A stretch of DNA of 64,000 nucleotides from Kaistella flava (ex Peng et al. 2021). Lineage in GTDB: Bacteria > Bacteroidota > Bacteroidia > Flavobacteriales > Weeksellaceae. The stretch's first letter is position 1. Each line of letters opens with the position of its first letter. The stretch is from assembly GCF_015191005.1 (NCBI RefSeq), contig NZ_CP040442.1, forward strand, positions 2,170,001 to 2,234,000. Reading direction: 5' to 3'. Shown here piece by piece: positions 21,099 through 52,963 of this stretch. The notes beneath the pieces were generated by a model, which was not told the origin of the DNA, did no database searches, and saw only the letters and a program-made list of their open reading frames with translations. The position numbers were made by a program, and so were the translations under genes.

Positions 21099-21332
21099 CG
21101 ACATAGGAGATTTTTGCGTAAAGAAAAATTGTAATTTCTTCTATATAAACCCTTCAACTAACCACTCATAAAAATCTCCAGTGTCCGAAGCGCGGTCAAA
21201 AACCAAAATCGAAGACCAACTTACATTCCGCGCAAGTTTGGAGATTTTCTAAGAAGAAATTCCAATTTTTTAGCAAAAAGATCCAATCTTGTCCCGAAAC
21301 TTCGGGCTTGTTACTTTTTGTGTCGAGATAAA
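21099..21332 (-). repeat. Family 1 element, copy R1
   Basis: Tail at the left (CGACATAGGAGATTTTT), inner stem AAAATCTCC with GGAGATTTT, apical arms GCGCGG and CCGCGC. Its head carries a CCCGAA/TTCGGG mini-hairpin. The inner stem differs from other copies in a compensated way. Confidence 0.7.
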
Positions 21333-21523
21333 CCATTGCAAATGATTCGCTGTTTCCGTTAAAAAATATAAATATGATGAAGCAAAAATAAAAAGAAATC
21401 AATATTAAAACTTGTTTTAAATCACGTGGCTTCGACAGGCTCAGCCACCAGTTTATCTTTTATCGAAATAGCAATGCTATAACAGTAATTCCTCTTTAAT
21501 CTTCCCTCAAACTGATTTGTTAT

Positions 21524-21752
21524 CGACTTAGGAGATTTTTGCGTTAAGAAAAATTGTAATTTCTTCCAACCCTACTCTTTAACAACCACCACCTAAAAAT
21601 CCCTTTTGTTCGAAGCGCGGCAACCATTTAAATTCGAAGCGAAACTCGGATTTCCGCGCAAGTTGAGGGATTTTATTTGAAGAAATTTCAATTTTTTAGT
21701 AAAAAGATCCAGTCTTGAACTTTTGGTTCTTTTGTTTCAAGACAAAAGAACA
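21524..21752 (-). repeat. Family 1 element, copy R2
   Basis: Tail CGACTTAGGAGATTTTTGCG, inner stem AAAATCCCT with AGGGATTTT (compensated), apical GCGCGG type and head GGTTCTTTTGTTTCAAGAC. Confidence 0.7.
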
Positions 21753-21760
21753 AGATTAAA

Positions 21761-21866
21761 TTTCTGCCCGAGTTTGGGGATTTTCTCAGAAGAAATTTAC
21801 TTTTTTTAGTAAAAAGATCCAAGTCTTGACCTTTTTGTTACTTTTTGTGTCAAGACAAAAAGTAAA
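21761..21866 (-). repeat. Family 1 element, half copy
   Basis: Only the CCGCC-type arm, the GGGGATTTTC arm and a head of the CTTTTTGTGTCAAGAC type; the tail half is missing. Confidence 0.6.
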
Positions 21867-21928
21867 GAATAAAAGAAACTACTTGAATTACTAACACATC
21901 ATGTAAAAAGAAAATATACACTACCACC

Positions 21929-21990
21929 CAGAAAGCTTCTTTTCCCCAACCCTTACTTCGACAAGCTCAGCATAAAAAAGGAAGGAAGCT
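21929..21990 (-). repeat. Family 2 hairpin
   Basis: AGAAAGCTTC and GAAGCTTTCT arms with TTTTCCCCAACCC and GCTCAGCATAAAAAA inside, the conserved family 2 core. Confidence 0.55.
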
Positions 21991-22060
21991 TTCTTAGCAT
22001 TTTCACTAAAACCAGCTCCCCAATCACCATCTCAACCTCAACCTAAAAAGCATTTGAACT

Positions 22061-22290
22061 CGACTTCGGCGATTTTTGCGTAAAGAAAAAAGAAAATTTC
22101 TTCCAACCTACCCTTCCAACAAACACCGCCTAAAAATCCCCAGTGTTTGAGTGGCGGCAACAAATAGTATACACAAAAACCCATTCCCTTTCCGCCCGAG
22201 TTTGGGGATTTTCTCAGAAGAAATTTACTTTTTTTAGCAAAAAGATCCAAGTCTTGAACTTTTGGTTCTTTTGTTTCAAGACAAAAGAAC
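22061..22290 (-). repeat. Family 1 element, copy R3
   Basis: A clean 230-bp copy of the GGCGG/CCGCC type: tail CGACTTCGGCGATTTTTGCG, inner stem AAAATCCCC/GGGGATTTT and head ending in a 9-bp hairpin GTTCTTTTG/CAAAAGAAC. Confidence 0.75.
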
Positions 22291-22298
22291 AGAAAATA

Positions 22299-22402
22299 GA
22301 CACCCAGAAAGCTTCTTTTCTCCAACCCTTTGCTTCGACAGGTACTTCAGCAAGCTCAGTATGACACTCAGCATAAAAAAGAAAGAAAGCTTTCTTCGCA
22401 TT
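22299..22402 (-). repeat. Family 2 hairpin
   Basis: Arms AGAAAGCTT and AAGCTTTCT surround CTCCAACCC, two TCGACA/GCTCAG motifs and GCATAAAAAA. Confidence 0.55.
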
Positions 22403-22794
22403 TGTACAAAAAACCCGTTGTCATTCCAAGAAAGGAGGCCACGACCGACGAAGCAACCTCAACCTCACCACCAATTCTTAAAAAACACAATATTTTCTAT
22501 AAATTCTACCAATCCAACACCCAACCACTTAGCCCCTCCAAGCCCCCCTCTAGGATACTTCATGGATCCCCCTAGGATAGTTGCCCAAATCCCCACTCCA
22601 ACTTTCGGCAATACCGGCAGAACCGGCACAAAACAGCCCTTTCCGCAAAAAACAATCCTTTCGGCAAAAACCCCCTTAACCGGCACCAACACTTGCTTTA
22701 AATGAAAATATTACCAAATTTTGTCCCGTGATCACAACAGGTTTTACCGGATGTACCTCAACATCTGATTCTTAATTTCTTAAAATTTAAAACA

Positions 22795-23553
22795 ATGGCA
22801 AGACAAAAAGGACTTATTAAGCTAAAAGGAACGATGGGTGACATCACCTTCTATCGTACCAAAGACGGTTACATGGCCCGCGAAAAAGGCGGCATCACGG
22901 CCGAAAGAATGCGCACTGATCCCGCTTTTCAGCGGACCCGCGAAAATATGGCAGAGTTCGGCAGAGCAGGCAAAGCCGGTAAAGTATTGCGCAACTCAGT
23001 ACAGTCGTTACTGCGTACGGCAGGCGACCGATTGATGGTGAGCCGCCTGACCAAAGAAATGGTCAAAGTAATTCAGCTCGATGCCATCAATCCTCGTGGA
23101 CTGCGAAATGTCATTGATGGCGAAGCAGAGCTGTTGCAGGGATTCGATTTCAATATCCATGGTAAATTGAACACCAGTTTCGGAGCTCCATTTGTAACCA
23201 CTTTGGATCGCGCACTCGGCACGGCCCATATCGACATCGCTCCATTTATTCCCACGGACAGTGTGATTGCTCCGGCTGGTAGCACCCACTACAAGTTAGT
23301 TTCTGCCGGGACAGACATTAATTTTGAAGCAGAAAGCTACACCTCAGACCGCAACGAAAGTGACATTTTACCGATCAACACGGTCCTCACCGACCCAATT
23401 GAATTGCACAATACGTTACCCGCTGCTTCGGTCAACCCTCTCTTTCTGTTATTCGGGATCAACTTTTATCAGGAAGTAAATGGGTCTTTTTACGAGTTGA
23501 AAAATGGGTCGTACAACGCACTGCAACTGGTGCAGGTTTCTGGCACACCATAA
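22795..23553 (+). CDS. Conserved Bacteroidota protein of unknown function
   Basis: 252 residues, no signal peptide. The N-terminus IKLKGTMGDITFYRTKDGYM, then AREKGGI and FQRTRENMAEFGRAGKAGK, is basic; the C-terminal half is richer in beta-type sequence (HIDIAPFIPTDSVIAPAG). I recall similar proteins in Flavobacteria and Sphingobacteria, often beside DUF5675, with no assigned role. It heads a tight operon: DUF5675 starts 2 bp after its stop. Base use is less AT-rich than the flanking spacers. A phage-structural or domesticated-phage origin is possible but unproven. Confidence 0.7.
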   Translation: MARQKGLIKLKGTMGDITFYRTKDGYMAREKGGITAERMRTDPAFQRTRENMAEFGRAGKAGKVLRNSVQSLLRTAGDRLMVSRLTKEMVKVIQLDAINPRGLRNVIDGEAELLQGFDFNIHGKLNTSFGAPFVTTLDRALGTAHIDIAPFIPTDSVIAPAGSTHYKLVSAGTDINFEAESYTSDRNESDILPINTVLTDPIELHNTLPAASVNPLFLLFGINFYQEVNGSFYELKNGSYNALQLVQVSGTP

Positions 23554-23555
23554 TC

Positions 23556-23948
23556 ATGGAACTTCAATTAATCAGAACCTCACATCCTACTGGAGTCAAT
23601 GGTGTACTGCTGCTAGACGGGGTAGAACTCTGCAAAACTATTGAGTTACCTTGGTTGGAAAACAGACCGCGGATCTCCTGCATTCCTGTTGGAAAGTATC
23701 GATTGCGGAAACGATGCAGTGTCAAATTCAACTGGCATTTTGAATTGATGGACGTGCCGGGGCGCAGCGCTATTTTAATTCATCCCGCCAACCATGCCGC
23801 CCTGGAATTGAAAGGGTGTATTGCACCCGTGCTCCAACATACCGGAGAAGGAAAAGGCAGTTCTTCCAGAATTGCTTTGGAACGCTTGAAAGACCGCCTT
23901 TATCCCCTCTTGGATAAAGGGAATATCATCTATCTAACCATAAAATAA
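23556..23948 (+). CDS. DUF5675 family protein
   Basis: 130 residues covering the whole DUF5675 domain: ELQLIRTSHPTGVNGVLLLD, PVGKYRLRKR, and the conserved ILIHPANHAALELKGCIAP with His and Cys that recall an L,D-transpeptidase-like arrangement. DUF5675 proteins occur in phages and in bacterial operons; activity has not been shown to my knowledge. It sits second in the cassette, 8 bp before a small membrane protein, as a lysis or wall-modifying gene might. Confidence 0.8.
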   Translation: MELQLIRTSHPTGVNGVLLLDGVELCKTIELPWLENRPRISCIPVGKYRLRKRCSVKFNWHFELMDVPGRSAILIHPANHAALELKGCIAPVLQHTGEGKGSSSRIALERLKDRLYPLLDKGNIIYLTIK

Positions 23949-23956
23949 GTTGAACC

Positions 23957-24175
23957 ATGAAAAAGATCATCCAGCGATTACAGGAGCCGACTCCACGGTT
24001 CTTTCGCAAGATCAGAAATTACGGCTTGGTATTAACGACCATCAGTGCGGTGATAACAACAGCTGTTATTCCACTACCAGCGGTGCTCATCACCCTGGCA
24101 GGTTACACCGCCTTAGCAGGCGGCATCGCCAGCGCGCTCAGCCAGACAGCCGTCGAAAACGAGGGCAAGCCATGA
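23957..24175 (+). CDS. Small membrane protein, holin-like size
   Basis: 72 residues: a basic head (KKIIQRLQEPTPRFFRKIR), then two hydrophobic stretches (GLVLTTISAVITTAVI and LPAVLITLAGYTALAGGIA). Size and topology resemble small holin-like proteins, but sequence alone does not establish that. Its stop overlaps the start of the next gene. Confidence 0.65.
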   Translation: MKKIIQRLQEPTPRFFRKIRNYGLVLTTISAVITTAVIPLPAVLITLAGYTALAGGIASALSQTAVENEGKP

Positions 24176-24357
24176 TGCAGTTTGACACGGCACAGCGCAT
24201 CAGTGCCGCCAGTGGCATGGCCCTGATTGTGATGCTGCAGATCCAAAGAGAGGAAGTCATTAAAACGATTGTTTTAGCTGGCCTTGGAGGAATGGCCAGC
24301 TACCTCTTCACTTTAATATTAAAATTTCTGATTCTTTATTTGAAAAAGAAATTTTAA
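24172..24357 (+). CDS. Small membrane protein overlapping the previous gene
   Basis: 61 residues from ATG 24172, which overlaps the previous TGA (24173-24175); a second ATG follows at 24175. Two hydrophobic segments (MALIVMLQIQ and LAGLGGMASYLFTLILKFLI) and a basic end (KKKF). The overlap and a terminator 15 bp downstream support it as the last gene of the cassette. Not recognised. Confidence 0.6.
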   Translation: MMQFDTAQRISAASGMALIVMLQIQREEVIKTIVLAGLGGMASYLFTLILKFLILYLKKKF

Positions 24358-24371
24358 GTGTTTTTTTAACG

Positions 24372-24398
24372 GAAGGCCTCTCAGTACGAGAGGTCTTC
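24372..24398 (+). terminator. Terminator after the four-gene cassette
   Basis: GAAGGCCTCTC pairs with GAGAGGTCTTC (11 bp, one G-T pair) with a 5-nt loop and a T-rich end. Confidence 0.8.
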
Positions 24399-24529
24399 TT
24401 TTGTTGAATACTACCATCAGTGCGAGCAGTCTCTAAAAATGTAATCGCAAGCAGCCAGCACCGACCGACAGCCTGTCCGCCTTACCCGAAAGCAACCTGG
24501 ACCTTCAACTTAACTAATAGGTACTCCCC

Positions 24530-24760
24530 CGACTTAGGAGATTTTTACGTTAAGAAAAATTAAATTTCTTTTGCATAGATCCTCTAAATTATAACCGCAT
24601 AAAAATCCCCATTGTTTGAGTGGCGGCAACAAATTTCATACACAAAAACCTAGTACCTTTCCGCCCGAGTTTTGGGGGGGCTCTTAAAAGAAATTTTATT
24701 TTTTAGCAAAAAAATCCAGTCTTGACTTTTTTGTTACTTTTTGTGTCAAGACAAAAAGTA
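24530..24760 (-). repeat. Family 1 element, copy R4
   Basis: GGCGG/CCGCC type with the CTTTTTGTGTCAAGAC head. The inner right arm is damaged (a G-run), so this copy is decaying. Confidence 0.7.
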
Positions 24761-25037
24761 AAGAAATCATTTAGTAAACAGATCCACGTCTTGTCCCAAA
24801 ACTTCGGAATTGTTTCTTTTGTTTCAAGACAAAAGAACAAATAAACATTTAAGAAAAAGATCCGTATCGTGACCTTTTTGTGTCAAGACAAACCATTGAA
24901 AATGGTTCGCTGATTCCTATAAAAAATATAAATATGATGAAGCAAAAAATAAAAGAAATCAACAATTAAACTTATTTTAAATCACGTGGCTTCGACAGGC
25001 TCAGCCACCAGTAGGCCTTAATTAAATTAACCAATAT

Positions 25038-25267
25038 CGACTTCGGAGATTTTTACGTTAAGAAAAATGAAAATTTCTTCGAGCCTAACTAATCAACTAA
25101 CTCTGCATAAAAATCCCCATTGTTTGAGTGGCGGCAACAAATTCATACACAAAAACCCACTATATTTCCGCCCGAGTTTTGGGGATTTTCTAAGAAGAAA
25201 TTATCTTTTTTTAGTAAAAAGATCCAAGTCTTGAACTTTTGTTTCTTTTGTTTCAAGACAAAAGAAA
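25038..25267 (-). repeat. Family 1 element, copy R5
   Basis: GGCGG/CCGCC type, tail CGACTTCGGAGATTTTTACG; it ends 99 bp before the pglD stop. Confidence 0.72.
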
Positions 25268-25365
25268 TTAATATTATAACTGGGTTTTAAATCACGTGGC
25301 TTCGACAGGCTCAGCCACCAGTTTATCTTTTATCGAAATAGCAATTCTATATCATTAATTCCTCT

Positions 25366-25998
25366 TCAATCTACCCTATAAAAATCGGGATCATTATACT
25401 TAATAATCCTCCCCGGATTACCAACAACCACCGCATAATCTGGAACATCCTTTATCACCACCGTACCAGCACCAATCGTCACCCACTTTCCAATTGTAAT
25501 ACACTGGATCACACTCGCACCAATCCCAATTTGAGAACCTTCACCAACGCTCACATGACCTGCCAAGGCAGCATTCGGGGAGATATGCACATAATCTTCC
25601 AACACACAATCGTGCTCTACGACGCAGCCTGAATTTAAGATACAGTGCTTCCCTATTTGGGTTCCGGCATTGACTACCACTTGTGGCATTACCACGGTAC
25701 CCTCTTCTATTTCGGCAAAAGAGGAGATGCTAGCTGTAGGAGCAATGGCTTTAAAAAAAGAGAATTCATTTTGTTCAACGACCTTTTTTCGCACCTCATT
25801 ACTGCCGATCGCAATAATGAATTGATCTTCTGGTGTTGAGGTATAAGAGGCTGTGGCATGCACTGGAATATGGAGCAAGGTATCTGCTTGTGGCCGATCA
25901 TCCAGAATAGCGGTTACCTGTATTTTTGCAGACAATACGATATCTGCCACCACTTTGCCGTGTCCGCTTGCGCCAAAAATATAATATTGGGTGTTCAT
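25366..25998 (-). CDS. PglD-type sugar O/N-acyltransferase
   Basis: 210 residues. An N-terminal Rossmann-like domain (YYIFGASGHGKVVADIV) and a C-terminal left-handed beta-helix of hexapeptide repeats (GTQIGKHCILNSGCVVEHD to WVTIGAGTVVIKDVPDYAVV) ending VVGNPGR. This is the NeuD/PglD architecture, acetyl-CoA-dependent N-acetylation of a UDP-4-amino sugar in the Pgl pathway. His in EHD is the expected catalytic base. It follows PglC by 3 bp and is the last gene of the polysaccharide locus. No PglE-type aminotransferase is adjacent, so the acceptor is uncertain. Confidence 0.88.
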   Translation of the reverse strand: MNTQYYIFGASGHGKVVADIVLSAKIQVTAILDDRPQADTLLHIPVHATASYTSTPEDQFIIAIGSNEVRKKVVEQNEFSFFKAIAPTASISSFAEIEEGTVVMPQVVVNAGTQIGKHCILNSGCVVEHDCVLEDYVHISPNAALAGHVSVGEGSQIGIGASVIQCITIGKWVTIGAGTVVIKDVPDYAVVVGNPGRIIKYNDPDFYRVD

Positions 25999-26001
25999 TC
26001 T

Positions 26002-27784: not shown

Positions 27785-27813
27785 GGGAAGGAGGTTGTTG
27801 TTTTTTTGTGGTG

Positions 27814-27821: not shown

Positions 27822-27849
27822 AAGTTTTTCTGGTAACCATAGCGATGGA

Positions 27850-27965: not shown

Positions 27966-27987
27966 TCACGGTGTGGGCAAGGACTTG

Positions 27988-41634: not shown

Positions 41635-41793
41635 ACTATAAAGGCGCTACCGCCATGTTTTATTTACTATTCTACAATCCTCTTCAATTCCTATGCATAG
41701 GGCAATGAATTGGGTTTCGGGGTGCTCATTTCTGTTTACTTGGAGGCAAATACAATGAAATCAGCTACTTGTTTTGCATTTTTTTTCGTGGTG

Positions 41794-41801
41794 CAAAAGT
41801 A
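41794..41801 (-). promoter_or_regulatory. -7 box for the dehydrogenase gene
   Basis: TACTTTTG followed by CACCA on the minus strand, preceded by TTAACTTTTCT. Nearly identical to the box at 45692. Confidence 0.62.
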
Positions 41802-42182
41802 AGAAAAGTTAATGAGATGTGGTGGTGTTTTTTTGAGGTTCTTTTGTGGGTGGCGTTATTTATTTGTTTATGGAGGGGGTGAGGGATGTTGGGTGATGGG
41901 CAAAATATGGATGATTGTTGAGATCGGCGGAATAGGTGAGCGTTTTAAATACTAATCGCACTAATGGTTTTCACTAATGACACTATTAAAGTTTATCAAG
42001 CTTACTAGATCATGGATAATTGAAGAACATAAAAACTGAACCACTCAAAAAATACTATCTCCGCATTTTACTTGGCTCTTTTTTAAACACATCAGTCACA
42101 TGAGTTGGAGTGAGGGCAAAGAGCATATAAGTTTTGGTTTCGCTAGTGAACGGAATGTAATTTACAAATTATGTTCTTTTCT

Positions 42183-42413
42183 CTGTTCTTTTGTCTTGAA
42201 ACAAAAGAACCAAAAGTTCAAGACCTGGATCTTTTTACTAAAAAAAGTAAATTTCTTCTAAGAAAATCCCCAAACTTGCGCGGAAATGAAAGTTGCGCTT
42301 CGATGTTAAATTTTTGCCCGCGCTTCAAACACTGGGGATTTTTATGTTTGCTTATTGAAAAATACTGTTGGAAGAAATTTTCTTTTTTCTTAACGTAAAA
42401 ATCTCCTAAGTCA
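42183..42413 (+). repeat. Family 1 element, copy F1
   Basis: GCGCGG/CCGCGC type; head hairpin GTTCTTTTG/CAAAAGAAC; inner stem AAAATCCCC/GGGGATTTT; tail TAACGTAAAAATCTCCTAAG. Confidence 0.75.
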
Positions 42414-42461
42414 TTTATAGTGCGACCAGGTAGTGATGGAGTAAACTTCGGTGAAAATCCG

Positions 42462-42600
42462 ATTCACTCCCTTTTTTATGCTGAATGTCATACTGAGCTT
42501 GTCGAAGTACCTGTCGAAGTTGGTTGCTGAGCCTGTCGAAGCAAAGGGTTGGGGAAAATGAATCGGATTTTTTTTTAACGCCAATAACTCCTAAGTGGTA
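42462..42600 (+). repeat. Family 2 hairpin with family 1 tail
   Basis: ATCCGATTCA pairs with TGAATCGGAT. Between them lie CTCCCTTTTTTATGCTGA, three TCGA/GAGC motifs and GGGTTGGGGAAAA; the tail AACGCCAATAACTCCTAAG follows. Confidence 0.68.
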
Positions 42601-42735
42601 ATAATACTTAGAAGTTAATACTTGAAATTTTGTAATCTTTTGCTTGGTAATTGAGCTCGTCGATGGTGATTGAGCCTGTCGATGGTGATTGAGCTTGTCG
42701 AAATCACCAATACAAAAAAACATTTTCGTTTCTCT

Positions 42736-42991
42736 TTTACTTTTTGTCTTGACACAAAAAGTAACAAAAAAGTCAAGACGGGATCTTTTTACTAAAAAAA
42801 GTAAATTTCTTCTAAGAAAATCCCCATTATTTATCTCGTCTTTAAGACGAGACTTGCGCGGAAATGTAAGTTGCGCTTCGATGTTAAATTTTTGCCCGCG
42901 CTTCAAACACTGGGGATTTTTATGTTTGCTTGTTGAAAAATACTGTTGGAAGAAATTTTCTTTTTTCTTAACGTAAAAATCTCCTAAGTCG
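42736..42991 (+). repeat. Family 1 element, copy F2
   Basis: GCGCGG/CCGCGC type, head CTTTTTGTCTTGACAC, and an extra mini-hairpin CTCGTC/GACGAG in the conserved internal loop. Confidence 0.75.
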
Positions 42992-43028
42992 AATTCTTGT
43001 GCAAGTATTGACAGAACCTCATTTTCGA

Positions 43029-43175
43029 AAAAATCCGATTCACTCCCTTTTTTATGCTGAGTGTCATACTGAGCTTGTCGAAGTACCTGTCGAAGTTGGT
43101 TGCTGAGCCTGTCGAAGCAAAGGGTTGGGGAAAATGAAGCGGATATTATTGACGTCAATAATTCCTAAGTCGGAC
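43029..43175 (+). repeat. Family 2 hairpin with family 1 tail
   Basis: ATCCGATTCA opposite TGAAGCGGAT, then GACGTCAATAATTCCTAAG. Linked to copy F2 by a spacer containing GTGCAAGTATTGACAGA. Confidence 0.68.
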
Positions 43176-43235
43176 AAAATGCGTTTGAAGCTAGGGGTAA
43201 AGGTCGTCTTGGAGTATGGAAATGTGCTTTTTCAA

Positions 43236-43281
43236 GAGCTAAGAAAGCTTCCACCCTTTAGGGTTGGGGAAAAGAAGCTTT
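43236..43281 (+). repeat. Family 2 hairpin, short
   Basis: AGAAAGCTTC and GAAGCTTTCT around CACCCTTTAGGGTTGGGGAA; the arms differ from the CCGATTCA copies in a paired way. Confidence 0.62.
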
Positions 43282-43350
43282 CTGGGTATGGGCGTTTCCT
43301 TTTGACCTGTGGTGTAGTAATAGTAATAATGGAATTCGTTTCTTTTATTC

Positions 43351-43582
43351 TTTTACTTTTTGTCTTGACACAAAAAGTAACAAAAAAGTCAAGACGGGAT
43401 CTTTTTACTAAAAAAAGTAAATTTCTTCTAAGAAAATCCCCAAACTCGGGCGGAATTTTAGTTTTTTTATAGAATGAAAATTTTTGCCGCCACTCAAACA
43501 GTGGGGATTTTTACTCGGTGTTTGTTGAAAAGGTATGCTGGAAGAAATTTGCCTTTTTCTTAACGTAAAAATCTCCTAAGTC
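43351..43582 (+). repeat. Family 1 element, copy F3
   Basis: GGGCGG/CCGCC type, head CTTTTTGTCTTGACAC, tail TAACGTAAAAATCTCCTAAG. Confidence 0.75.
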
Positions 43583-43619
43583 AAATTTTCGTGCAAGTAT
43601 TAAGAGATCCTCAATTTTT

Positions 43620-43690
43620 GGAAAATCTGTTTTTCCTCCTTTTTTATGCTGAGTCGGTCTAAGTAAGGGTTGGGAAAAATGAAGTCTGCA
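43620..43690 (+). repeat. Family 2 hairpin, degenerate
   Basis: CTCCTTTTTTATGCTGAG and AAGGGTTGGGAAAAATGAAG are kept, but the arms are poorly paired. Confidence 0.45.
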
Positions 43691-44003
43691 CAAATACTTG
43701 CAGGTAGCATAACCTAAAATTATGAAATTCTTTACTTGGTGATTGTGTCTGTCGATGGTGGTTGAGTTTGTCGAAATCACCAATACAAAAAACCATTTTC
43801 TTTTTTCTGTTAATTTTGCCTTGATGCAAAAAAATTGTAAGTCAGTTTTAAAAGCATTGCCTATTCGCCTGAGGTGAACTTTGCGCCTTAAAATGTTTTC
43901 ACGGAAATTAAAATCTTTGCGCCTTTGCATTAAAAATATTTTCACGCAATTGTAATTGCATTGTAGTGAACGGAATGTAATTTACAAACTATGTTCTTTT
44001 CTA

Positions 44004-44232
44004 TGTTCTTTTCTCTTGAAACAAAAGAACCAAAAGTTCAAGACTGGATTCTTTTGCTAAAAAATGGTAATTTCTTCTAAGAAAACCCCAAAACTCGGGC
44101 GGGATTGGAGGTTATTTCTAAGATTCATTTGTATTGCCGCCACTCAAACAGTGGCGCTTTTTAGGTGGTGTTGTTTATAAAGTGGGTGAGAAGAAATAAC
44201 CATTTTTCTTAACGTAAAAATCTCCTAAGTCG
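44004..44232 (+). repeat. Family 1 element, copy F4
   Basis: GGGCGG/CCGCC type. Outer stem GGTAATTTCTTCT opposite AGAAGAAATAACC shows compensated change relative to other copies; the right inner arm is decayed. Confidence 0.72.
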
Positions 44233-44460
44233 GTAAAGGTAAAGGATCGTGTAAATTATAACGTATTTCAGCAGGATTTATCCTGCAAAAAACTACTGTG
44301 GTCTTTTATGCAGGAAGTGATTACTTGAACCTAATGTGGCTAATGTGTTAAAAATAAAAACTTTGTGACTTTGTGGTTTAGAGAAAATTGTTTGTTCTTC
44401 ATACTTACTTGGTGATTGAGCCGAGTCGAAATCACCGTGTGGCTTCGGCTCCGCTCAGCC
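44231..44460 (+). repeat. Family 3 segment
   Basis: About 230 bp shared with 50984-51229 and 51478-51728: it contains TTATAACGTATTTCAGCAGG, AGCAGGATTTATCCTGC, TTTTATGCA and ends in a small GTGATT...AATCAC hairpin. Confidence 0.7.
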
Positions 44461-44591
44461 ACCAAATCAACCTATCATCAAATCACCACAACCTTCACAC
44501 TTGATACTTCATAATCCATACTTTTTACTTCATCCTTCATAAAAAAGCTCAATCCAAGCACCCAGCATCCCGCATCAAACACCCAGCACCG

Positions 44592-45560
44592 CTACTTCAA
44601 ATTCGCCCAGTACCACTCCACCGCTTCTTTTAAACCGGCTTTTATATCGTGAGAAGGGTTGTAATTTAATAATTCTTTGGCCTTTTCCACTGATGCCAGA
44701 GAATGAGGAATATCGCCGGCTCTTTGGGGGCCGTGAATAATTTCGACATTTTTTATTTCTGGGTCGTAGATAGAAAGGTATTCTTTCAAGTATTCTACCA
44801 AAAGATTAAGCGTGGTGCGATCTCCTACTGCCGTGTTGTAAACGGTATTGATTGCTTCTTTGTTATCAGACAACATCGCTCTTTCATTCATCTGAATGAC
44901 ATTGTCGATATAGGTAAAATCACGGGAGTAATCTCCGGTTCCATTAATCACCGGACTTTCATGATTCATCAATTGAATTACAAATTTCGGAATAACGGCT
45001 GCATACGCACCATTTGGAGTCTGTCTTCTTCCAAACACATTGAAATACCGCAGCCCGATACACTCCATCCCGTATGTTTTACTGAACACGTCTGCGTAAA
45101 GCTCATTCACATATTTGGTAATCGCATAAGGTGACAAAGGTTTTCCAATAACATCCTCTACTTTAGGCAGCGATTCAGAATCGCCATAAGTGGAAGAGCT
45201 CGCAGCATAGATGAATCTTTTTACTTTCGCATCTCTGGCAGCGACAAGCATATTTAAGAAACCACCTACATTAACATCATTACTGGTAATCGGATCATTA
45301 ATAGATCGTGGGACCGAACCTAAAGCAGCTTCATGAAGAATATAGTCCTGCCCTTCACATGCTTTATGACAGGTTGCTAAGTCACGAATATCGCCTTCGA
45401 TCAGTGTGAAATTAGGATTGGTGAACAGGTGTTCGATATTGTGTCTGAAACCGGTTGCGAAATTATCTAAGGCCGTTACCTGATCGCCTTTTTCAATAAA
45501 GTGGTCGCAAAGGTTGGATCCGATAAAGCCTGCTCCGCCGGTAATTAATATTTTACTCAT
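44592..45560 (-). CDS. UDP-HexNAc 4-epimerase (WbpP/TviC-like SDR)
   Basis: 322 residues from ATG 45560 (MSKILITGGAGFIGSNLCDH). A longer open frame reaches 45716 but contains the promoter at 45692 and is not translated. Extended SDR with the GGAGFIG nucleotide motif, SSSTYGDSE, YAITKYVNE (catalytic Tyr and Lys), YFNVFGRRQ and DYSRDFTYIDNVI, typical of the WbpP/TviC group. It would interconvert UDP-GlcNAc(A) and UDP-GalNAc(A) with the dehydrogenase at 40354, although the two genes are separated by a 3-kb repeat island. Confidence 0.9.
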   Translation of the reverse strand: MSKILITGGAGFIGSNLCDHFIEKGDQVTALDNFATGFRHNIEHLFTNPNFTLIEGDIRDLATCHKACEGQDYILHEAALGSVPRSINDPITSNDVNVGGFLNMLVAARDAKVKRFIYAASSSTYGDSESLPKVEDVIGKPLSPYAITKYVNELYADVFSKTYGMECIGLRYFNVFGRRQTPNGAYAAVIPKFVIQLMNHESPVINGTGDYSRDFTYIDNVIQMNERAMLSDNKEAINTVYNTAVGDRTTLNLLVEYLKEYLSIYDPEIKNVEIIHGPQRAGDIPHSLASVEKAKELLNYNPSHDIKAGLKEAVEWYWANLK

Positions 45561-45691
45561 TTTCTTTTTTTTTAAATGTAATGTTGTGAGCTGCTGAACT
45601 TGCGAAAATACCTGTTCAACTACTCTCTTCTCTTGCCAATCCAATAAGTTTAGAAAACAAATGTGATTCTGACTGCTATTTTTAACTGGTG

Positions 45692-45699
45692 CAAAAGTA
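45692..45699 (-). promoter_or_regulatory. -7 box for the epimerase gene
   Basis: TACTTTTG followed by CACCA on the minus strand, preceded by GTTAACTTTCCT. It lies 132 bp before ATG 45560 and inside the longer frame, which decides the start. Confidence 0.65.
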
Positions 45700-45767
45700 A
45701 GGAAAGTTAACGCCATCGTTTTTCTTTTTGTTAAAAAATATTTTTAACTGATTTTTTAAGGGAAAGG

Positions 45768-45817
<50 letters not shown>

Positions 45818-46071
45818 GTTAAAAAAATCATTATTGGTGACTGAGCGAAGCCGAAATCACATCTATAAAAACAAGGCTTTTCTCTTTCACTTTTGCCTTG
45901 ATGCAAAGAATTGCAAGTCGGTTTTAAAGCATTGCCTATTCGCCTGAGGCATACTTGCGTTTGCTTTAAAATATTCTCACGCAATTGTAATTGTTTTGTA
46001 GTTGAAGGAAAGTACTTTAAAAATTATGTTCTTGTTTTCTGTTCTTTTGCTTCATTTTTTATTATTCTTTA

Positions 46072-46407
46072 ATGGAATCAGCGAACCATTTAAAATGGTT
46101 TGTCTTGAAATAAAAGAACCAGTCCCGAAGTTTCGGGACAAGACCTGGATAAATTGGCTAAATAATGGTAATTTCTTCTAAGAAAATCTCCATTATTTAT
46201 CTCGTCATCAAGACGAGACTTGCGCGGTTTTAACAGTTGCGCTTTGATGTTAAATCTTTGCCGCGCTTCAAACACTGGGACTTTTCAGGTATTGCAAGTT
46301 GATGTGGTGGGATGGGAAGAATTTACCATTTGCCTCCTTCATCTATTTTTTTATTTGAATCGGCGAACCTCTTTGAGGTTTTTCTTAACGCAAATGGCTC
46401 CTAAGTC
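46072..46407 (+). repeat. Family 1 element, copy F5 (expanded)
   Basis: GCGCGG-type arms, the CCCGAA/TTCGGG head variant, the CTCGTC/GACGAG internal mini-hairpin also seen in F2, and a ~60-bp insertion before the tail. Confidence 0.65.
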
Positions 46408-46439
46408 AAATTTTTGTGCAAGTATTAACAGATGCTCAA

Positions 46440-46515
46440 TTTCAGAAAAATCGGATTCGCACCTTTTTTTATGCTGAGCGTGATGGCGTAAATGTTGGGG
46501 AAAATGAAGCTGTTT
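46440..46515 (+). repeat. Family 2 hairpin
   Basis: ATCGGATTCGCACC, TTTTTTTATGCTGAGCGTG and TTGGGGAAAATGAAGC; linked to F5 by the GTGCAAGTATTAACAGA spacer. Confidence 0.5.
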
Positions 46516-46795
46516 TTTTTTGATTCGGGAACTTCTAGATCGTTAAAAACACTTTTGACCGTAATAAAATTATTGTTTCAGAAATTAAATCAGCTTCTAT
46601 ACCTCTTAATTACCCTTCATACCTTAATGGTTCAAAAAATAAGTTTCGGCTAAAGCCACATGATGTTGCAGATCGAGGTGATTTCGACAGGCTCAATCAC
46701 CAAATTGCTCATTCATCATAACATCAAATCACTGATTCAAAGTTCTTGCAGATCGTAGTGATTTCGACAGGCTTAATCACTAAATTGTTCAATCA

Positions 46796-46850
46796 TCACA
46801 TCACATCACATCACATCACATCACATCACATCACATCACATCACATCACA
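46796..46850. repeat. ACATC pentamer array
   Basis: About eleven tandem copies of ACATC, 96 bp downstream of the wzc stop codon. Confidence 0.85.
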
Positions 46851-46945
46851 AAATCATCACATTCTTCATCTCGCAGCGAACAGAGTCTCTCCTCTACCAT
46901 CTCAAGCGAAGCGCGTCCATATTATCTCAAAGCGAAGCGCATCCT

Positions 46946-49267
46946 TTAAACAAACTTTTTCCACCATTTCGGTTTTTCATCATGGGTGTATGAATAATAA
47001 CCGTAGCTGTATTTTGTTCCATAGCGGGTATTTTCGGGTTTCACTCCGTTAAGAATAAAAGCCATATTACTGATATTATTATCTTTCCTAAAAGATTCGG
47101 CAAAACCAATCATCTCCTGTTCTGTAAAATCAGCCTTTGCAACATAAAGGACTACATCTGCACTTTCGACCAGATGGAGTGTATCACTTACCAACATTAC
47201 TGGAGCCGAATCTAAAACAACATATTCATATTTTGTTTTTAAATAAGCGATGAGTAAATCGAATTTCTCCATGTCCAAAAGATCGTTGGGGTTGGGCGCC
47301 ATTTGGCCACCGAAAAGCACATCAAGATTTTCACTTACGTTTGATTTCATAATAAAGAGATCCGGAGTGGTATCATCAGACACCAAATAATCGGTCAATC
47401 CCTTTTTATGACCATCCATAAAACGGTGCAATTGTGGGTTTCGGATATCAGCACCGACAATAATTACCTTGCTTTTTCCAGCTAATGTGAGCGCGGTATT
47501 GACGGAAACCGTTGTTTTTCCTTCGCCTTTAACAGAGGAGGTGACTAAGACCACGCCTCCATTTTTTAAACCTCTAGCTCTTAGCAGGTATTTCAGGTTG
47601 GAACTTAAAATCCTGAAAGATTCGGTATAAACAGAAAAGTCGTTGGAATGAACCGTTTTACTCTCCTCTTTGTTAAACGGAACTTCTGCAATCACCGAGG
47701 CAGTAGGAAAATGAGACAGTATATTGTTTTTAGTATGGATCTTGGTATCTAAAGTTTTCTTTCCAAAGAAGAAAAGTAAGGGCAATAATAATCCTATTGC
47801 TAAGGAGCCATATTCAATCTGATCTCTGTTCGGAGAGACAATTCCGGTCGTATAAGCGGGATTTATGACTTTGGCTTTGGGTGCTGTCACGGCTAAAGTA
47901 ATAGCATTCTCTTCTCTTTTCTGCAAGAGATAAAGATAAAGCTGCTCTTTAAGGGTCTGTTGTCGATCGATGCTCCGGAATATTTTTTCACGTTCCGGAA
48001 ATTTGCTAATATCACCTTTAGCAAGGTTGAGTTCAGCTTTTGCCTGACCCAACTGAAGTTGGAGGGTTTCGCGGGATTCTATTAAATTTTTTCTGATTAA
48101 ATTTTTAAGTTCAGTAATCTGCTTATTAATCGTAATTACTGCAGGATTTTCACCAGTTGCCTGTTTCAGTACTCTATTTCGGGTAAGCAAAAGGTCATTA
48201 TAAGCTACGATATTACTTTCAGCCCCTGAAGAAAGTCCTAATCCGGAAGGCAATAGCTGATCACCACTACTTGCTGCAAGAACAGAATTTACCAAATCAA
48301 GTTGCATTGTTTGGGTAAGAATAATTTTAGTATTCTCATCTGCCTTTGTAACAGCATTACCCGCCTGTACCTCGAGATTGGTAATCTGATTGGTTCGCTT
48401 AAAGTTTTCTTTTTGGCCTTCAATTCCTGACAAATCATCAGTAATGATAGCTAACCGGTCGTTGATGAAGTTCTGCGTATTCTGTGCTTCTTCATTTTTA
48501 TCTTTAATACCGTCAATAATATACTGTTTTGAAAGCTCATTGAGAATATCTTCCGATTGTTGGGGTATGGCTCCCACTATGGAAAGTTCCATAAGCATAC
48601 CTTTGTTAGGCGGCAACGATACTGCAATACTGTTTTCTAAGCTACTAATTACCGTGCTCATACTTTTAAAAACCACTTTTAAAGGAGCGCTAAAACTCGA
48701 TCCTGCCAACCGGTCAATTTGCACTATTCCAAACGGCAGTTTTACGGCAGAGCCGAATTGATAAATGGTATCGGAATTAGAAAAACGATAACCATTTTTT
48801 CCCTCAGGTGTAAGGGTATATGTAGCTCCAGAAAAACGTTCGGGATGAGTGACGCTAATGATTTTTCCTTTGAGCGGGCCTCCATTGTATAGCGCAACTT
48901 CTTTTACAGCACCAATACTGAAAAAACTCACTTGTAAATTAAGATTTTTGCCAACCATTCCTAATATAGGTTTCGATACCACCACTGTAGTTTCGCCCTG
49001 CAGTTCATCATTACCACTTACTCCCACCCCTAAATTCTTCAGGTCGCTGAGCGCCGTGGTATTTTTACCTTTGGATTCCTGGAGTTTTAAAGAGGTTTTG
49101 GTAAAATATTGAGGCTGTGCATATCGGAGATAAATTTTTGCAGCACTGAAAAAAATCGCCATGCTGAGTAAAAACCAAGGCCATTTCTTAAGATATCTCC
49201 CAATTTCTCTTTTTAAATTGACGGATTTTACCGGCTGTGCAGTACCCGAACTTTCAAGTAATTCCAT
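46946..49267 (-). CDS. Wzc-type polysaccharide co-polymerase and tyrosine kinase
   Basis: 773 residues. An N-terminal chain-length-determinant domain with membrane helix WFLLSMAIFFSAAKIYL, a long periplasmic coiled-coil region (~80-480), a second membrane helix (YGSLAIGLLLPLLFFFG), then the BY-kinase domain with Walker A SSVKGEGKTT, Walker A' VIIVGADIRNP and Walker B YVVLDSAPV. The C-terminus is Tyr-rich (YGTKYSYGYYSYTHDE), the autophosphorylated cluster. It controls export and chain length with the Wza-like lipoprotein 5 bp upstream. Confidence 0.94.
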   Translation of the reverse strand: MELLESSGTAQPVKSVNLKREIGRYLKKWPWFLLSMAIFFSAAKIYLRYAQPQYFTKTSLKLQESKGKNTTALSDLKNLGVGVSGNDELQGETTVVVSKPILGMVGKNLNLQVSFFSIGAVKEVALYNGGPLKGKIISVTHPERFSGATYTLTPEGKNGYRFSNSDTIYQFGSAVKLPFGIVQIDRLAGSSFSAPLKVVFKSMSTVISSLENSIAVSLPPNKGMLMELSIVGAIPQQSEDILNELSKQYIIDGIKDKNEEAQNTQNFINDRLAIITDDLSGIEGQKENFKRTNQITNLEVQAGNAVTKADENTKIILTQTMQLDLVNSVLAASSGDQLLPSGLGLSSGAESNIVAYNDLLLTRNRVLKQATGENPAVITINKQITELKNLIRKNLIESRETLQLQLGQAKAELNLAKGDISKFPEREKIFRSIDRQQTLKEQLYLYLLQKREENAITLAVTAPKAKVINPAYTTGIVSPNRDQIEYGSLAIGLLLPLLFFFGKKTLDTKIHTKNNILSHFPTASVIAEVPFNKEESKTVHSNDFSVYTESFRILSSNLKYLLRARGLKNGGVVLVTSSVKGEGKTTVSVNTALTLAGKSKVIIVGADIRNPQLHRFMDGHKKGLTDYLVSDDTTPDLFIMKSNVSENLDVLFGGQMAPNPNDLLDMEKFDLLIAYLKTKYEYVVLDSAPVMLVSDTLHLVESADVVLYVAKADFTEQEMIGFAESFRKDNNISNMAFILNGVKPENTRYGTKYSYGYYSYTHDEKPKWWKKFV

Positions 49268-49272
49268 TGCTA

Positions 49273-50076
49273 TTATTTACGGGTTAAAGTAAGAATTAAG
49301 GTAAGTAAACCTAAACCAACTCCACCATATTTAATCCATTGATCTACTTTGGAATTCCGATTTTCACCAATCTGTTTATTGCGATCCGGTTCTACATATA
49401 GAATATCGTTTTGCTGCAGATAATAATAAGGGGAATTCACAATCGACGCTTCGGAAAGATCTAAAGAAATCACTTTATCTTTGCCTTCTTCGTCGGAATA
49501 ACGGATAAGCTTCACATCGGTTTTATTACCATCGTAGGTGGCATCACCTGCTAAAGCAAGTGCCTGAAAGAGATTGAGTTTTTCGGTGGTGCTGGTTTTC
49601 TGTCCAGGACTCTTAACCTCCCCTAAAACGCTAATGTTAAAATTGGAGAGCGTAATAGTAACCATCGGATCGGTAAGATAGCGCTTAAGACGACTTTCGA
49701 GCTCTTCTTTTAGTTGTTGCTTGGTCATGCCTTTGCAGAACACATTTCCCAAGACAGGAAATAGAATGCTACCTTCGGAATTTACAATATATTCGCTGGG
49801 ACTAGGGATTTGATTAGCCGCACTAGTGGTATTTGCACCTGCGGCACCAGTTTTCGCCATGGTATTGATATTGAAGGGGCGCACTGCTATTTCATCAAAA
49901 GCAGAAACTAAGATCTGCAAGCGGTCGCCATCCTGAATATGTAAACCTGAATATCGTGCCTGCGAAACTTCATGTTCAAAGTTATTATTAGACATGTAAA
50001 CAATGTTTTGTTTGGGTTTACAGGCTTGTAAGAGGATTAAGGTTACTATAACAAATACTACTGAGTATTTTTTCAT
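49273..50076 (-). CDS. Wza-like polysaccharide export lipoprotein
   Basis: 267 residues. Lipobox LLQAC (Cys 19), a poly_export domain (DGDRLQILVSAFDEIAVRPF, YIVNSEGSILFPVLGNV, LKRYLTDPMVTITL) and one SLBB domain (NISVLGEVKSPGQ). A C-terminal hydrophobic helix (GGVGLGLLTLILTL) spans the outer membrane or anchors the protein. It opens the export operon from the -7 box at 50094. Confidence 0.93.
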   Translation of the reverse strand: MKKYSVVFVIVTLILLQACKPKQNIVYMSNNNFEHEVSQARYSGLHIQDGDRLQILVSAFDEIAVRPFNINTMAKTGAAGANTTSAANQIPSPSEYIVNSEGSILFPVLGNVFCKGMTKQQLKEELESRLKRYLTDPMVTITLSNFNISVLGEVKSPGQKTSTTEKLNLFQALALAGDATYDGNKTDVKLIRYSDEEGKDKVISLDLSEASIVNSPYYYLQQNDILYVEPDRNKQIGENRNSKVDQWIKYGGVGLGLLTLILTLTRK

Positions 50077-50093
50077 TTCTAATTTTTAAAGGA

Positions 50094-50101
50094 CAAAGAT
50101 A
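50094..50101 (-). promoter_or_regulatory. -7 box for wza-wzc
   Basis: TATCTTTG on the minus strand, 18 bp before the start. It lacks the CACCA extension of the other three locus promoters. Confidence 0.62.
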
Positions 50102-50154
50102 AAATAACATCTGCAATCCCAAGTTCCAGGAGCAGAGACCAAAATAAGAGGATC

Positions 50155-50787
50155 TTATTTTTCGTTTAAATAATAATTAAGACCTAAACCCAATATACGG
50201 TTATAGTTATTCCGGGTATTATCTGGATATACTTTGCTAAATCCATGATCATATTTTAAAAAGGCTTCCAATTGTTGCGCGACTTTTAAGCCTATACCTA
50301 GCGTTACTCCATAACCAAATTTATTAACGTCTTGATCATGATTTATTTTATTATATTTCAAATCATAAGCAGGATCTACTTTACGGTCATTTCTGACCAT
50401 GTATTCAATTCGGGGTCCAGCAAATAAAAAGACATCTTTTTTAAAATTTCCCTGATGAAAAAAGTATTTTAACACCACGTCCATAGCGACATAATCCTGA
50501 TTGAATTTTTGAACTCCGAATTTGTTTACTTCAGCTCTTGCGTATTCTCCCTGGGTGCTGTACTCTATTGTAGAGTTTATATACAACCAGGCAGAATCGA
50601 AAATATCATTTTCCACTAAGGGTATTTGTCCAAAAACACCGAGTGTCCCACCGAATTTACCGGTGGACCTGTCATGAACCCCCGCAATAGAGCCTTGATG
50701 AAAGCTACCAGTGAGTCCATATTCGAATTCCTGTGCTTGTACGGTCACCAAAAGGAAAACGGCGATAAGTGTAATTATTTTTTTCAT
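50155..50787 (-). CDS. Outer-membrane beta-barrel protein
   Basis: 210 residues from ATG 50787 (MKKIITLIAVFLLVTVQAQ, a clear signal peptide); the longer frame to 50838 adds a non-signal head. The mature part alternates polar and aromatic residues (FEYGLTGSFHQGSIAG, VFLFAGPRIEYMVRND, FGYGVTLGIGLKV) and ends NRILGLGLNYYLNEK, as expected for a small eight-stranded barrel of the porin-family type. It is just upstream of wza and may belong to surface assembly, though many such barrels are unrelated. Confidence 0.8.
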   Translation of the reverse strand: MKKIITLIAVFLLVTVQAQEFEYGLTGSFHQGSIAGVHDRSTGKFGGTLGVFGQIPLVENDIFDSAWLYINSTIEYSTQGEYARAEVNKFGVQKFNQDYVAMDVVLKYFFHQGNFKKDVFLFAGPRIEYMVRNDRKVDPAYDLKYNKINHDQDVNKFGYGVTLGIGLKVAQQLEAFLKYDHGFSKVYPDNTRNNYNRILGLGLNYYLNEK

Positions 50788-50918
50788 AGTTTTTAATCCA
50801 ATTTTTATAATCTGTCGTCTAAAAAGATTATTTTGCAAATTAATTAAAATTATTTGAATTAATCGGCATTTATTTGAAATGAGTGTGGTTAAGTTGAAAA
50901 AGAGGGGTGTTGAATGTT

Positions 50919-50958
50919 TGATGATGGATGATGGATGATGGATGATGGATGATGGATG
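50919..50958. repeat. GGATGAT heptamer array
   Basis: Five to six tandem copies of GGATGAT. Confidence 0.8.
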
Positions 50959-50983
50959 TTGGATGTTTGATGATATCTCCGAA

Positions 50984-51229
50984 GTCGGTAAAGGTTGAGT
51001 TAAAGGAAGCGCATCGTTAAATTATAACGTATTCCAGCAGGATTTATCCTGCAAAAAACTGATGTGGTCTTTTATGCATGAAGTGATTACTTAAAAATAA
51101 TGTGACTAATGTGCAGAAAATAAAAACTTTTGTGACTTTGTGGTTTAAAGAAAATTGCTTTTTTATTCTGTTCTTTTGCCTCATTCATCGTACTAACTTG
51201 GTGATTGAGCGGAGCCGAAATCACATTGA
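50984..51229 (+). repeat. Family 3 segment
   Basis: Shares TTATAACGTATTCCAGCAGG, GGATTTATCCTGC and TTTGTGACTTTGTGGTTTA with 44231 and 51478. Confidence 0.7.
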
Positions 51230-51249
51230 TAGATCACTTATTTTATTCT

Positions 51250-51479
51250 CTGTTCTTTTGTCTTGAAACAAAAGAACCAAAAGTTCAAGACTGGATCTTT
51301 TTACTAAAAAAAGAAAATTTCTTCTAAGAAAATCCCCAAACTCGGGCGGAAAGTTAAATTGGGTATCTAACTACTATTTTTGCCGCCACTCAAACAGTGG
51401 GGATTTTTAGGTGTTGCAAGGTGATAAAGTGGGTTGGAAGAAATTTCCTTTTTTCTTAACGTAAAAATCTCCGAAGTCG
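51250..51479 (+). repeat. Family 1 element, copy F6
   Basis: Clean GGGCGG/CCGCC copy with head hairpin GTTCTTTTG/CAAAAGAAC, inner stem AAAATCCCC/GGGGATTTT and tail ending CTCCGAAGTCGG. Confidence 0.78.
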
Positions 51480-51728
51480 GTAAAGGCTAAGGAGGCGGAT
51501 CGTTTAAATTATAACGTATTTCAGCAGGATTTATCCTGCAAAAAACTAATGTGGTCTTTTATGCATGAGGTGATTACTTGAAACTAATGTGGCTAATGTG
51601 CAGAAAATAAAAACTTTTGTGACTTTGTGGTTTAAAGAAAATTATTTTTTCATTCTGTTCTTTTGCCTCATTCTTCGTACTAACTTGGTGATTGAGCCTG
51701 TCGATGGTGATTGAGCTTGTCAAAATCA
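51478..51728 (+). repeat. Family 3 segment
   Basis: Third copy, directly joined to F6 as the 44231 copy is to F4. Confidence 0.7.
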
Positions 51729-51753
51729 CATTTTTAGAGAACTTCTTTTATTT

Positions 51754-51985
51754 CTTGTTCTTTTGTCTTGAAACAAAAGAACCAAAAGTTCAAGACTGGA
51801 TCCTTTTGCTAAAAAATGGTCATTTCTTCTGACAAAATCCCCAAACTTGCGCGGAATTAAAATTGTACTTCGATATTAGAGTTTTGCCCGCGCTTCAAAC
51901 ACTGGGGATTTTTAGATAGTACAAGTTGACAACGTGGGTTGGGAAGAAATGACCATTTTTCTTAACGCTAAAGTCTCCTAAGTCG
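51754..51985 (+). repeat. Family 1 element, copy F7
   Basis: GCGCGG/CCGCGC type. The outer stem ATGGTCATTTCTTC pairs perfectly (14 bp) with GAAGAAATGACCAT, whose bases differ from other copies on both sides. Confidence 0.78.
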
Positions 51986-52094
51986 AATAAAATTCATAGT
52001 AATGATGGTTGCTCCGCTTGGTGATTGAGCTTGTCGATGGTAATTGAGCCTGTCGAAATCACATGTACAAAAACCATTCCCGTTTCAATATTCT

Positions 52095-52325
52095 TTTACT
52101 TTTTGTCTTGACACAAAAAGTAACAAAAAAGTCAAGACTGGATCTTTTTACTAAAAAAAGAAAATTTCTTCTAAGAAAATCCCCAAACTCGGACGGAAAG
52201 TTAAATAGTGTGAAAAATTACTATTTCTGCCGCCACTCAAACAGTCGGGATTTTTAGGTGTTGCTTGTTGAAAAATAGTGTTGGAAGAAATTTCCTTTTT
52301 TCTTAACGTAAAAATCTCCTAAGTC
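52095..52325 (+). repeat. Family 1 element, copy F8
   Basis: GGACGG/CCGCC type with the CTTTTTGTCTTGACAC head and tail TAACGTAAAAATCTCCTAAG. Confidence 0.75.
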
Positions 52326-52560
52326 AATTTTAAATTTGGATGTAATTAAGTGTTTTCTTTATTGAGCATTGACTGCTCACTCATTCACTATTGACCATTC
52401 ACTCATTCACTCAATTACCCAATCACGCAATCACTCACTCTCCACTTCCTGCTCCCACTCCCTACGAAAAACCTTCCCCAAGCGAAGCCCATTGCGCCTT
52501 AAAAAACATGAGAAAAACAGTTAGTAGTAAAAAAAACTTTGCGCCATTGCGTTAAAAAAA
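52325..52560. repeat. Family 4 segment, first copy
   Basis: Starts TTTGGATGTAATTAAGTG and ends CGCCATTGCGTTAAAA; matched by 52965-53165. Confidence 0.7.
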
Positions 52561-52729
52561 GAGCCAGGAATCAGCTTCTGTTCTTCTTAATTATCCTTCC
52601 TATCTTAATGTTTTAAAAAAGCAGTTACAAATTAGGTTTTTTTCGTCTGTTGTTTTTACCTTATTCTTCTTACGTACTTGGTGATTGAGCGGAGTCGAAA
52701 TCACAGGCTATCGATAATTTATTTTATTC

Positions 52730-52963
52730 TTGTTCTTTTGTCTTGAAACAAAAGAACCAAAAGTTCAAGACCTGGATTTATTGGCTAAAAAATTGGAATT
52801 TCTTCTGTGAAAATTCCTAAACTTGCGCGGGATTGGAGGTTACGCTTCGAAGATCAATTTTTGCCGCGCTTCGGACAAAAGGAATTTTTAGGTATTGTTA
52901 GTTGAAGGGTTGTTCTGGAAGAAATTTTAATTTTTCTTTACGCCAATAACTCCTAAGTCATTT
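52730..52963 (+). repeat. Family 1 element, copy F9
   Basis: GCGCGG-type. The inner stem is AAAATTCC/GGAATTTT instead of AAAATCCCC/GGGGATTTT, and the tail reads TACGCCAATAACTCCTAAG like the family 2 tails. Confidence 0.75.

Follow-up and report, generated by a model that had tools for sequence, protein, structure and literature searches.

The YPAL repeat (RU-2) is a non-autonomous intergenic element which folds as RNA and resembles a miniature inverted-repeat transposable element (MITE) with terminal inverted repeats. The same is described for ERIC/IRU and NEMIS (Correia), and the elements of this group, RU-2 included, measure about 105-170 bp. ERIC and NEMIS were reported to influence how stable a messenger RNA (mRNA) is or how it is processed, an effect which for ERIC depends on orientation (PMC2229807). 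BOX, RUP and SPRITE of pneumococci are likewise structured intergenic repeats, often bunched and nested (PMC10969869). Hairpin repeats without target duplication are found in REP/REPIN systems with RAYT, in genomes mostly holding Y1 transposase genes. REPs measure 20-40 bp (PMC3733652). In the present study a repeat of this broad kind was analyzed in a window of 64,000 nt from the Weeksellaceae member Kaistella flava (G000:C1:2170001-2234000; the window is the whole stretch of DNA that was analyzed, G000 the source genome, a single contig of 3,716,699 bp).

The repeat is about 230-245 bp long, with a helix of about 190 nt followed by a terminal module. It differs from ERIC, NEMIS and YPAL in its four-tier, 48-pair helix, in the separate terminal module, in the lack of visible terminal inverted repeats and in its Weeksellaceae host, and from REPs in size as well as in that no cognate Y1 gene was found at the 45 loci searched. 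BOX, RUP and SPRITE belong to a different host phylum and are not known to share sequence or layout with the repeat. A folded single strand and same-direction arrays with genes between are features of integron attC sites and are shared here, but a further terminal hairpin, which is conserved and lies beyond the GAC/GTC pair, distinguishes the repeat from attC. That no described family matches, as originally predicted, was borne out by Rfam, with 0 matches at the gathering threshold in the whole window and only chance-level hits far below it (E up to 10) in 51200-53000; no description of the repeat was found in the literature searched, with most subscription journals outside that search. We place it in the same wide class as ERIC, NEMIS and BOX; its fold, which is strand-specific, is unusually elaborate, and its ends are not inverted. 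On balance it is probably a non-autonomous mobile repeat which is kept mainly in sense, is probably read as RNA and was amplified here by local duplication.

Fold and strand of the repeat

On its own strand the element starts with (Y)GACYTAGGAG. Most copies were written on the opposite strand in the original prediction, and what was taken there for the tail, AACGTAAAAATCTCCTAAG, in fact forms the 5' end (GACTTAGGAGATTTTTACGTT). Nor is this end loose: it is the 5' strand of the closing stem, pairing with AAAAAGATCC-AGTC (..GTC) beyond the outer stem. The helix is built of four tiers, the closing, outer, inner and apical stems. The closing stem (GACY-NN-GGA-NN-TTTTTRC with GYAAAAA-NN-TCC-AGTC) is separated by an internal loop, GTTAA opposite A, from the outer stem, which exists as proposed but with 19 pairs rather than eight, including ATTTCTTC/GAAGAAAT, and is followed by an asymmetric loop. 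Past the inner stem (AAAAATCCCC/GGGGATTTT) lies an internal loop in which TTTGAGT and CGAGTTT, or alternatively TTTGAAG and CAAGTTT, are conserved, and the GC-rich apical stem, GGCGG/CCGCC or CGCGG/CCGCG, is capped by a variable loop. Beyond the closing stem the linker CTTGAN leads to the terminal hairpin, e.g., GTTCTTTTGT-TTCAAG-ACAAAAGAAC. The predicted head hairpin is therefore a true terminal hairpin, but head and tail are not separate units.

The 6-nt loop of the terminal hairpin is complementary to the preceding linker. Among 105 copies, chosen from 190 matches by omission of overlapping-locus duplicates, antisense shadows and weak matches, the changing position of linker and loop (T-A, A-T, C-G) pairs in 95 of the 97 that could be parsed (8/105 could not), with most other positions fixed by the loop pattern itself. 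Since the hairpin loop meets the 3' arm without a spacer, we infer that this pairing is an alternative fold and not a true pseudoknot.

Within G000, 94.7% of the cells of the alignment of 15 insert-free copies are paired and both-sided changes occur in 18 of the 48 pairs, compared with 6.6 (standard deviation 1.5) in shuffled controls and 1-6 in slid versions. Across relatives, 106 distinct copies in an alignment fitted to the model are 95.5% paired with compensatory changes in 30/48 pairs (shuffled 19.4, standard deviation 1.6; slid versions 10-18). A short form of about 163 bp plus a roughly 45-bp terminal module is frequent in other genera of the family; 19 such copies (17 from other genera) gave a like fold with MAFFT and RNAalifold (93.2% paired, 25/49 pairs compensatory), where the structure was predicted from that same MAFFT alignment and the 25/49 stands without a shuffle control. 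G.T exceeds A.C by 159 to 71, or by 82 to 31 after removal of the two most biased pairs, and by 76 to 11 in the short form, and the fold is therefore assigned to the GACYTAGGAG strand, as RNA or single-stranded DNA. As related copies are not independent, covariation and G.T ratios are to be read as descriptive.

Copies, ends and multiplication

All 14 near-full copies of the original prediction were recovered at their places with nhmmer (E 2.8e-50 to 8.2e-74), as was the half copy; the profile was made from these same 14 copies, so that similarity rather than independent discovery is demonstrated. A blastn search of G000 with one copy returns the same copies, 46086-46407 only partly, and five windows randomized in two-base blocks yielded 0 profile matches at E<0.01. 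Five of the 14 near-full copies lie on the plus and nine on the minus strand. The copies and partial copies of the window are as follows (found by profile and covariance model unless stated otherwise):

21100..21346, plus strand: full copy, terminal hairpin broken by a small nested insert (profile; covariance model 21100-21288)
21525..21756, plus strand: full copy
21757..21871, plus strand: half copy that comprises only the 3' part, starting with the apical stem (profile, E 4.3e-31)
22062..22299, plus strand: full copy
24531..24767, plus strand: full copy
24767..24842, plus strand: solitary 3' module, not in the original prediction (profile, E 3.5e-12)
24848..24905, plus strand: solitary 3' module with nested insert, not in the original prediction (profile, E 2.7e-6)
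25039..25270, plus strand: full copy
42177..42412, minus strand: full copy
42732..42990, minus strand: full copy, apical and inner stem separated by a 24-column hairpin insert
43346..43582, minus strand: full copy
43997..44231, minus strand: full copy
46086..46407, minus strand: full copy with nested inserts in 5' arm, apical region and 3' module (profile; covariance model weak, 50.5 bits)
51243..51478, minus strand: full copy, top profile match
51748..51984, minus strand: full copy
52089..52325, minus strand: full copy
52725..52959, minus strand: full copy, closing stem altered on both sides (GGAGTTATTGGC / GCCAATAAATCC, 52769-52959)

The element had been called dispersed, which does not hold for G000. 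There, 20 full copies, counted by one-copy blastn and refined with profile and pattern on 112 kb around the window, are all confined to 2146199-2222962 (77 kb) around polysaccharide genes, and the repeat is therefore regional in this genome. They stand in same-direction blocks of four plus, two minus, five plus and nine minus copies. Elsewhere in the chromosome a single divergent copy lies near 408595, outside the cluster. The proposed covariance-model search gave 21 matches in G000. The repeat encodes no protein, as predicted; in the single copy checked, each of the six reading frames is interrupted by stop codons. It explains some spurious short open reading frames (ORFs) of the window: those at 42415-43158 (minus), 43511-43945 (minus) and 22262-22705 (plus), of 144-247 aa, appear to consist mostly of repeat and probably do not represent genes.

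Mobility is suggested by the ends of the element. At 61 left and 51 right junctions, to which the 105 copies were reduced by flank similarity, information content on the left starts from at most 0.4 bits and reaches 2 bits at GAC, the base immediately preceding which is always C or T (40 C, 21 T); on the right it drops to at most 0.6 bits past the terminal hairpin. G029 has two copies, at a distance of about 609 kb from each other, which share 88% identity over 244 columns and whose flanks are unrelated. Sites without the element were found in G008 and G022 for a site in G029 and in G028 for a site in G020. No target-site duplication was visible at the two G029 copies and no base-exact empty site was present among those compared. 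The ends (Y)GACYTAGGAG and ..CAAAAGAAC/..GTAA were seen by eye not to be mutual inverted repeats, and a MITE derived from a DDE insertion sequence was rejected for want of terminal inverted repeats.

The nearest neighbour of a copy belongs to the same genome in 51/81 cases, against 5.2 with shuffled labels, and this falls to 24/70 when partners within 5 kb are ignored; regularly spaced arrays occur in G002, G007, G030 and G034. As the likeness within a genome runs mostly through neighbours within 5 kb and such arrays exist, local tandem duplication inside the polysaccharide locus is the likely main source of the window cluster, and transposition is the likely source of scattered copies.

Among 100 relatives, blastn matches were obtained in 53, seven of which, with weaker matches, are among 39 genomes from other families of the order, and a first covariance model matched 37, all within the family and none in other families. 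A second model matched 146 of 246 sampled Weeksellaceae genomes in 18 of 33 genera; copy positions in these surveys of relatives are those among the matches listed. The short form predominates in genus g21 (genomes of 3-6 Mb). The exact 5'-end pattern was found in 25 stretches of named records, from Kaistella, Chryseobacterium and other Weeksellaceae or Flavobacteriia. The covariance model gave no match in five of the 36 members of the genus to which G000 belongs (G009, G010, G018, G019, G021), distant blastn with one copy none in plasmid and phage collections, and two patterns no exact match in viral contigs.

Other repeats lie in and around the copies. After AAA sites in element loops and arms a nested insert of about 50-56 bp was observed, consisting of a hairpin, TTCGCYGATTC, an A/T-rich stretch and TGARGCAAA, which is probably a second, smaller mobile repeat:

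46340-46400, 21320-21385 and 24880-24950, window: nested insert
8220-8280, 8645-8690 and 9120-9180, locus L030: nested insert

Another structured repeat, at 42436-42604 and 43020-43175 (both minus), has a 5' end like ACTTAGGAGTTATTGGCGTTAA and a different body (AAATCCGATTCA/TGAATCGGATTT), and REP-like GTGATTTCGACAGGCTCAATCACC or GTGGCTTCGACAGGCTCAGCCACC follows many copies (window 42664-42700, 51686-51720, 25295-25325).

Search for the moving enzyme

In the mechanism favoured here, an enzyme supplied in trans would recognize the folded single strand and transpose the repeat. A more specific proposal is that the repeat is a REP-like element moved on its folded single strand by a RAYT or an IS200/IS605-type Y1 transposase of the same genome, which we regard as doubtful, if still a serious candidate. 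The lack of inverted ends and of visible target duplication, together with subterminal hairpins, would fit such an enzyme, and Y1 matches are present in 37/60 genomes. Among the 36 genus members, 28 have both Y1 and copies, three neither, two Y1 only and three copies only, a weak association (Fisher p 0.024, relatedness not removed) by which a Y1 enzyme stays a candidate. Against it speak G004, G015 and G034, three genomes with copies but no Y1 match. The search for a RAYT or other Y1 gene proposed in the original prediction yielded three matches in G000, but the flanks inspected by eye, in G000 and in relatives, carry other short palindromes.

A covariance search that covered 25 loci of an initial set of 32 Y1 loci, among them that of the decayed G000 gene, found no copy (best E 0.39), and read by eye, Y1 flanks show other palindromes at 13 loci of one set and in another set (25 of 31 parsed). 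Around weaker Y1 matches, 20 further loci were searched (45 in all, two showing the same gene), with a weak 53-nt match at L151 (E 0.0064) and a full copy at L146. At the latter locus, in G005, a RAYT gene lies beside a full and a partial copy, with a piece resembling the 3' part at its 5' side (14.8 bits, E 0.11). As cognate enzyme it was set aside, because the flanks of related RAYT genes show other REPs, and the repeat was likewise rejected as the REP of a RAYT, given that L146 is the sole exception to the lack of copies flanking a Y1 gene at the 45 loci. A replication-strand bias was absent as well, which argues against a Y1 enzyme: 24 clusters run with the fork and 23 against it, with dnaA taken as origin, nearby same-strand copies merged, lengths rounded for some genomes and positions taken among the matches listed.

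Inside the repeat region itself a RAYT-like gene with an internal TAA was noticed at G000:C1:2158840 (L161), its flanks carrying CTTCGCTGCGCAAAGTCTCC-type palindromes. IS110 with a bridge RNA was rejected, as none of the ten IS110 matches in G000 lies in 2.146-2.223 Mb; one IS110 gene is near two copies in G017. Overall, no moving enzyme was found among Y1/RAYT and IS110 genes, a search which did not extend to reverse transcriptases and tyrosine recombinases.

Orientation, neighbouring genes and possible role

With the upstream and downstream genes given relative to the folding strand (+ for sense), 48 intergenic regions, representing the 105 copies with one per region and including a few from other genera than that of the window, are distributed as ++ 26, -+ 11, +- 7 and -- 4 at an ORF cut-off of 150 aa; at other cut-offs ++ and -- number 29 vs 5 and 23 vs 3. 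At 21 further sites, mainly in other genera (23 taken from 33 matches, two in G029 dropped as already counted), ++ 8, +- 7, -+ 3 and -- 3 were found. Both sets joined, with three shared sites counted once (18 further), give ++ 33 vs -- 6 (p 1.4e-5). Being retained mainly in sense, the repeat is probably read as RNA. Copies would thereby end up inside mRNAs, between operon genes or behind stop codons, where the folded RNA may act; the simplest case would be an effect on the processing or stability of the mRNA, as with ERIC and NEMIS. Antisense copies would be selected against.

A different role would be that of a cis-acting leader RNA of polysaccharide or other surface operons, with antitermination like EAR or put and spread by recombination. 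The minus copies of the window do precede polysaccharide genes (UDP-sugar dehydrogenase, epimerase, outer-membrane and export protein, flippase, FdtA, DegT), and in G000, G030 and G034 copies fill two corresponding gaps, one on either side of the epimerase, towards a 773-aa Wzc-like ORF and towards the dehydrogenase; in G030 and G034 the Wzc assignment is based on position and length. In 37/48 regions the gene downstream has the sense orientation, and the dehydrogenase lies within 25 kb of a copy in at least 15/36 genomes, a count given without chance expectation. However, 44 of the 48 sense-strand downstream ORFs, scanned after omission of four repeat-like ones and of all 13 opposite-strand ORFs, match 68 Pfam families, and 8/44 are a sugar dehydrogenase or epimerase; of the 21 further sites only 11 have a sense downstream gene, and judged by eye their neighbours are of mixed kinds. 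A leader dependent on a NusG paralogue was rejected, since 36/36 genomes have a single NusG match, and the leader reading as a whole appears improbable.

The repeat could also be selfish DNA without an RNA role, its antisense copies lost because they stop transcription, which we consider unlikely. Of 61 sites, one falls within an ORF of at least 110 aa, and in 41700-53300 terminator-like hairpins are antisense in four copies (44138, 43490, 51386, 46222) and sense in two (44099, 46139). Yet terminator-like sites, 11 against 10.1 in shuffles, are no more frequent than by chance, and the strand-specific G.T excess would require a separate cause. A promoter inside the element was not supported either, as sigma-70-type sites are not enriched in 41700-53300 (21 vs 30.7 shuffled; promoter types of Bacteroidetes not covered).

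A bacterial counterpart of short interspersed nuclear elements, a structured non-coding RNA copied from host mRNAs and integrated by a trans-acting reverse transcriptase, would explain the sense-strand fold, the alignment with transcription and not replication, and the lack of inverted ends. It is nevertheless highly improbable: no clear excess of 5' truncation was seen at 24 loci (71 full copies, nine with only the 3' and four with only the 5' part), so that truncation as in long interspersed nuclear elements is not clear, and two of the nine 3'-only copies begin near position 55 and resemble the short form.

Several points weigh against a mobile repeat read as RNA, which we nevertheless prefer. 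The right ends were set by a hairpin-finding script, the empty sites are not base-exact and differ in further sequence at the same gaps, and, with no enzyme found, it is the sharp ends that argue for transposition over recombination. Relatedness of the copies remains in the shuffle control. The orientation bias stems mainly from the 48 regions, the 21 sites alone not being significant (upstream sense 15/21, p 0.08; downstream sense 11/21), and an RNA role, drawn from orientation and G.T bias, has to reckon with single-stranded DNA, which could share both.

Further neighbours of the copies were observed. A member of a small protein family of the GTMGDITFYRTKDGYM / GKLGDHVFYQLNGKQ type, which has no Pfam match, is encoded at 22795-23553 (plus) of the window, followed by DUF5675 and a short ORF, and proteins of this type are near copies in six genomes (G000, G005, G006, G017, G028, G034). 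At 19525-20373 (plus) a homologue of RteC (PF09357), a regulator known from conjugative transposons, is encoded.

The mobilizing enzyme is a concrete target for further work. A repeat that multiplies while its fold is kept by compensatory change offers a natural set of insertions of a folded element beside many genes, and would show how a mobile element seeds one RNA structure across the mRNAs of a genome.

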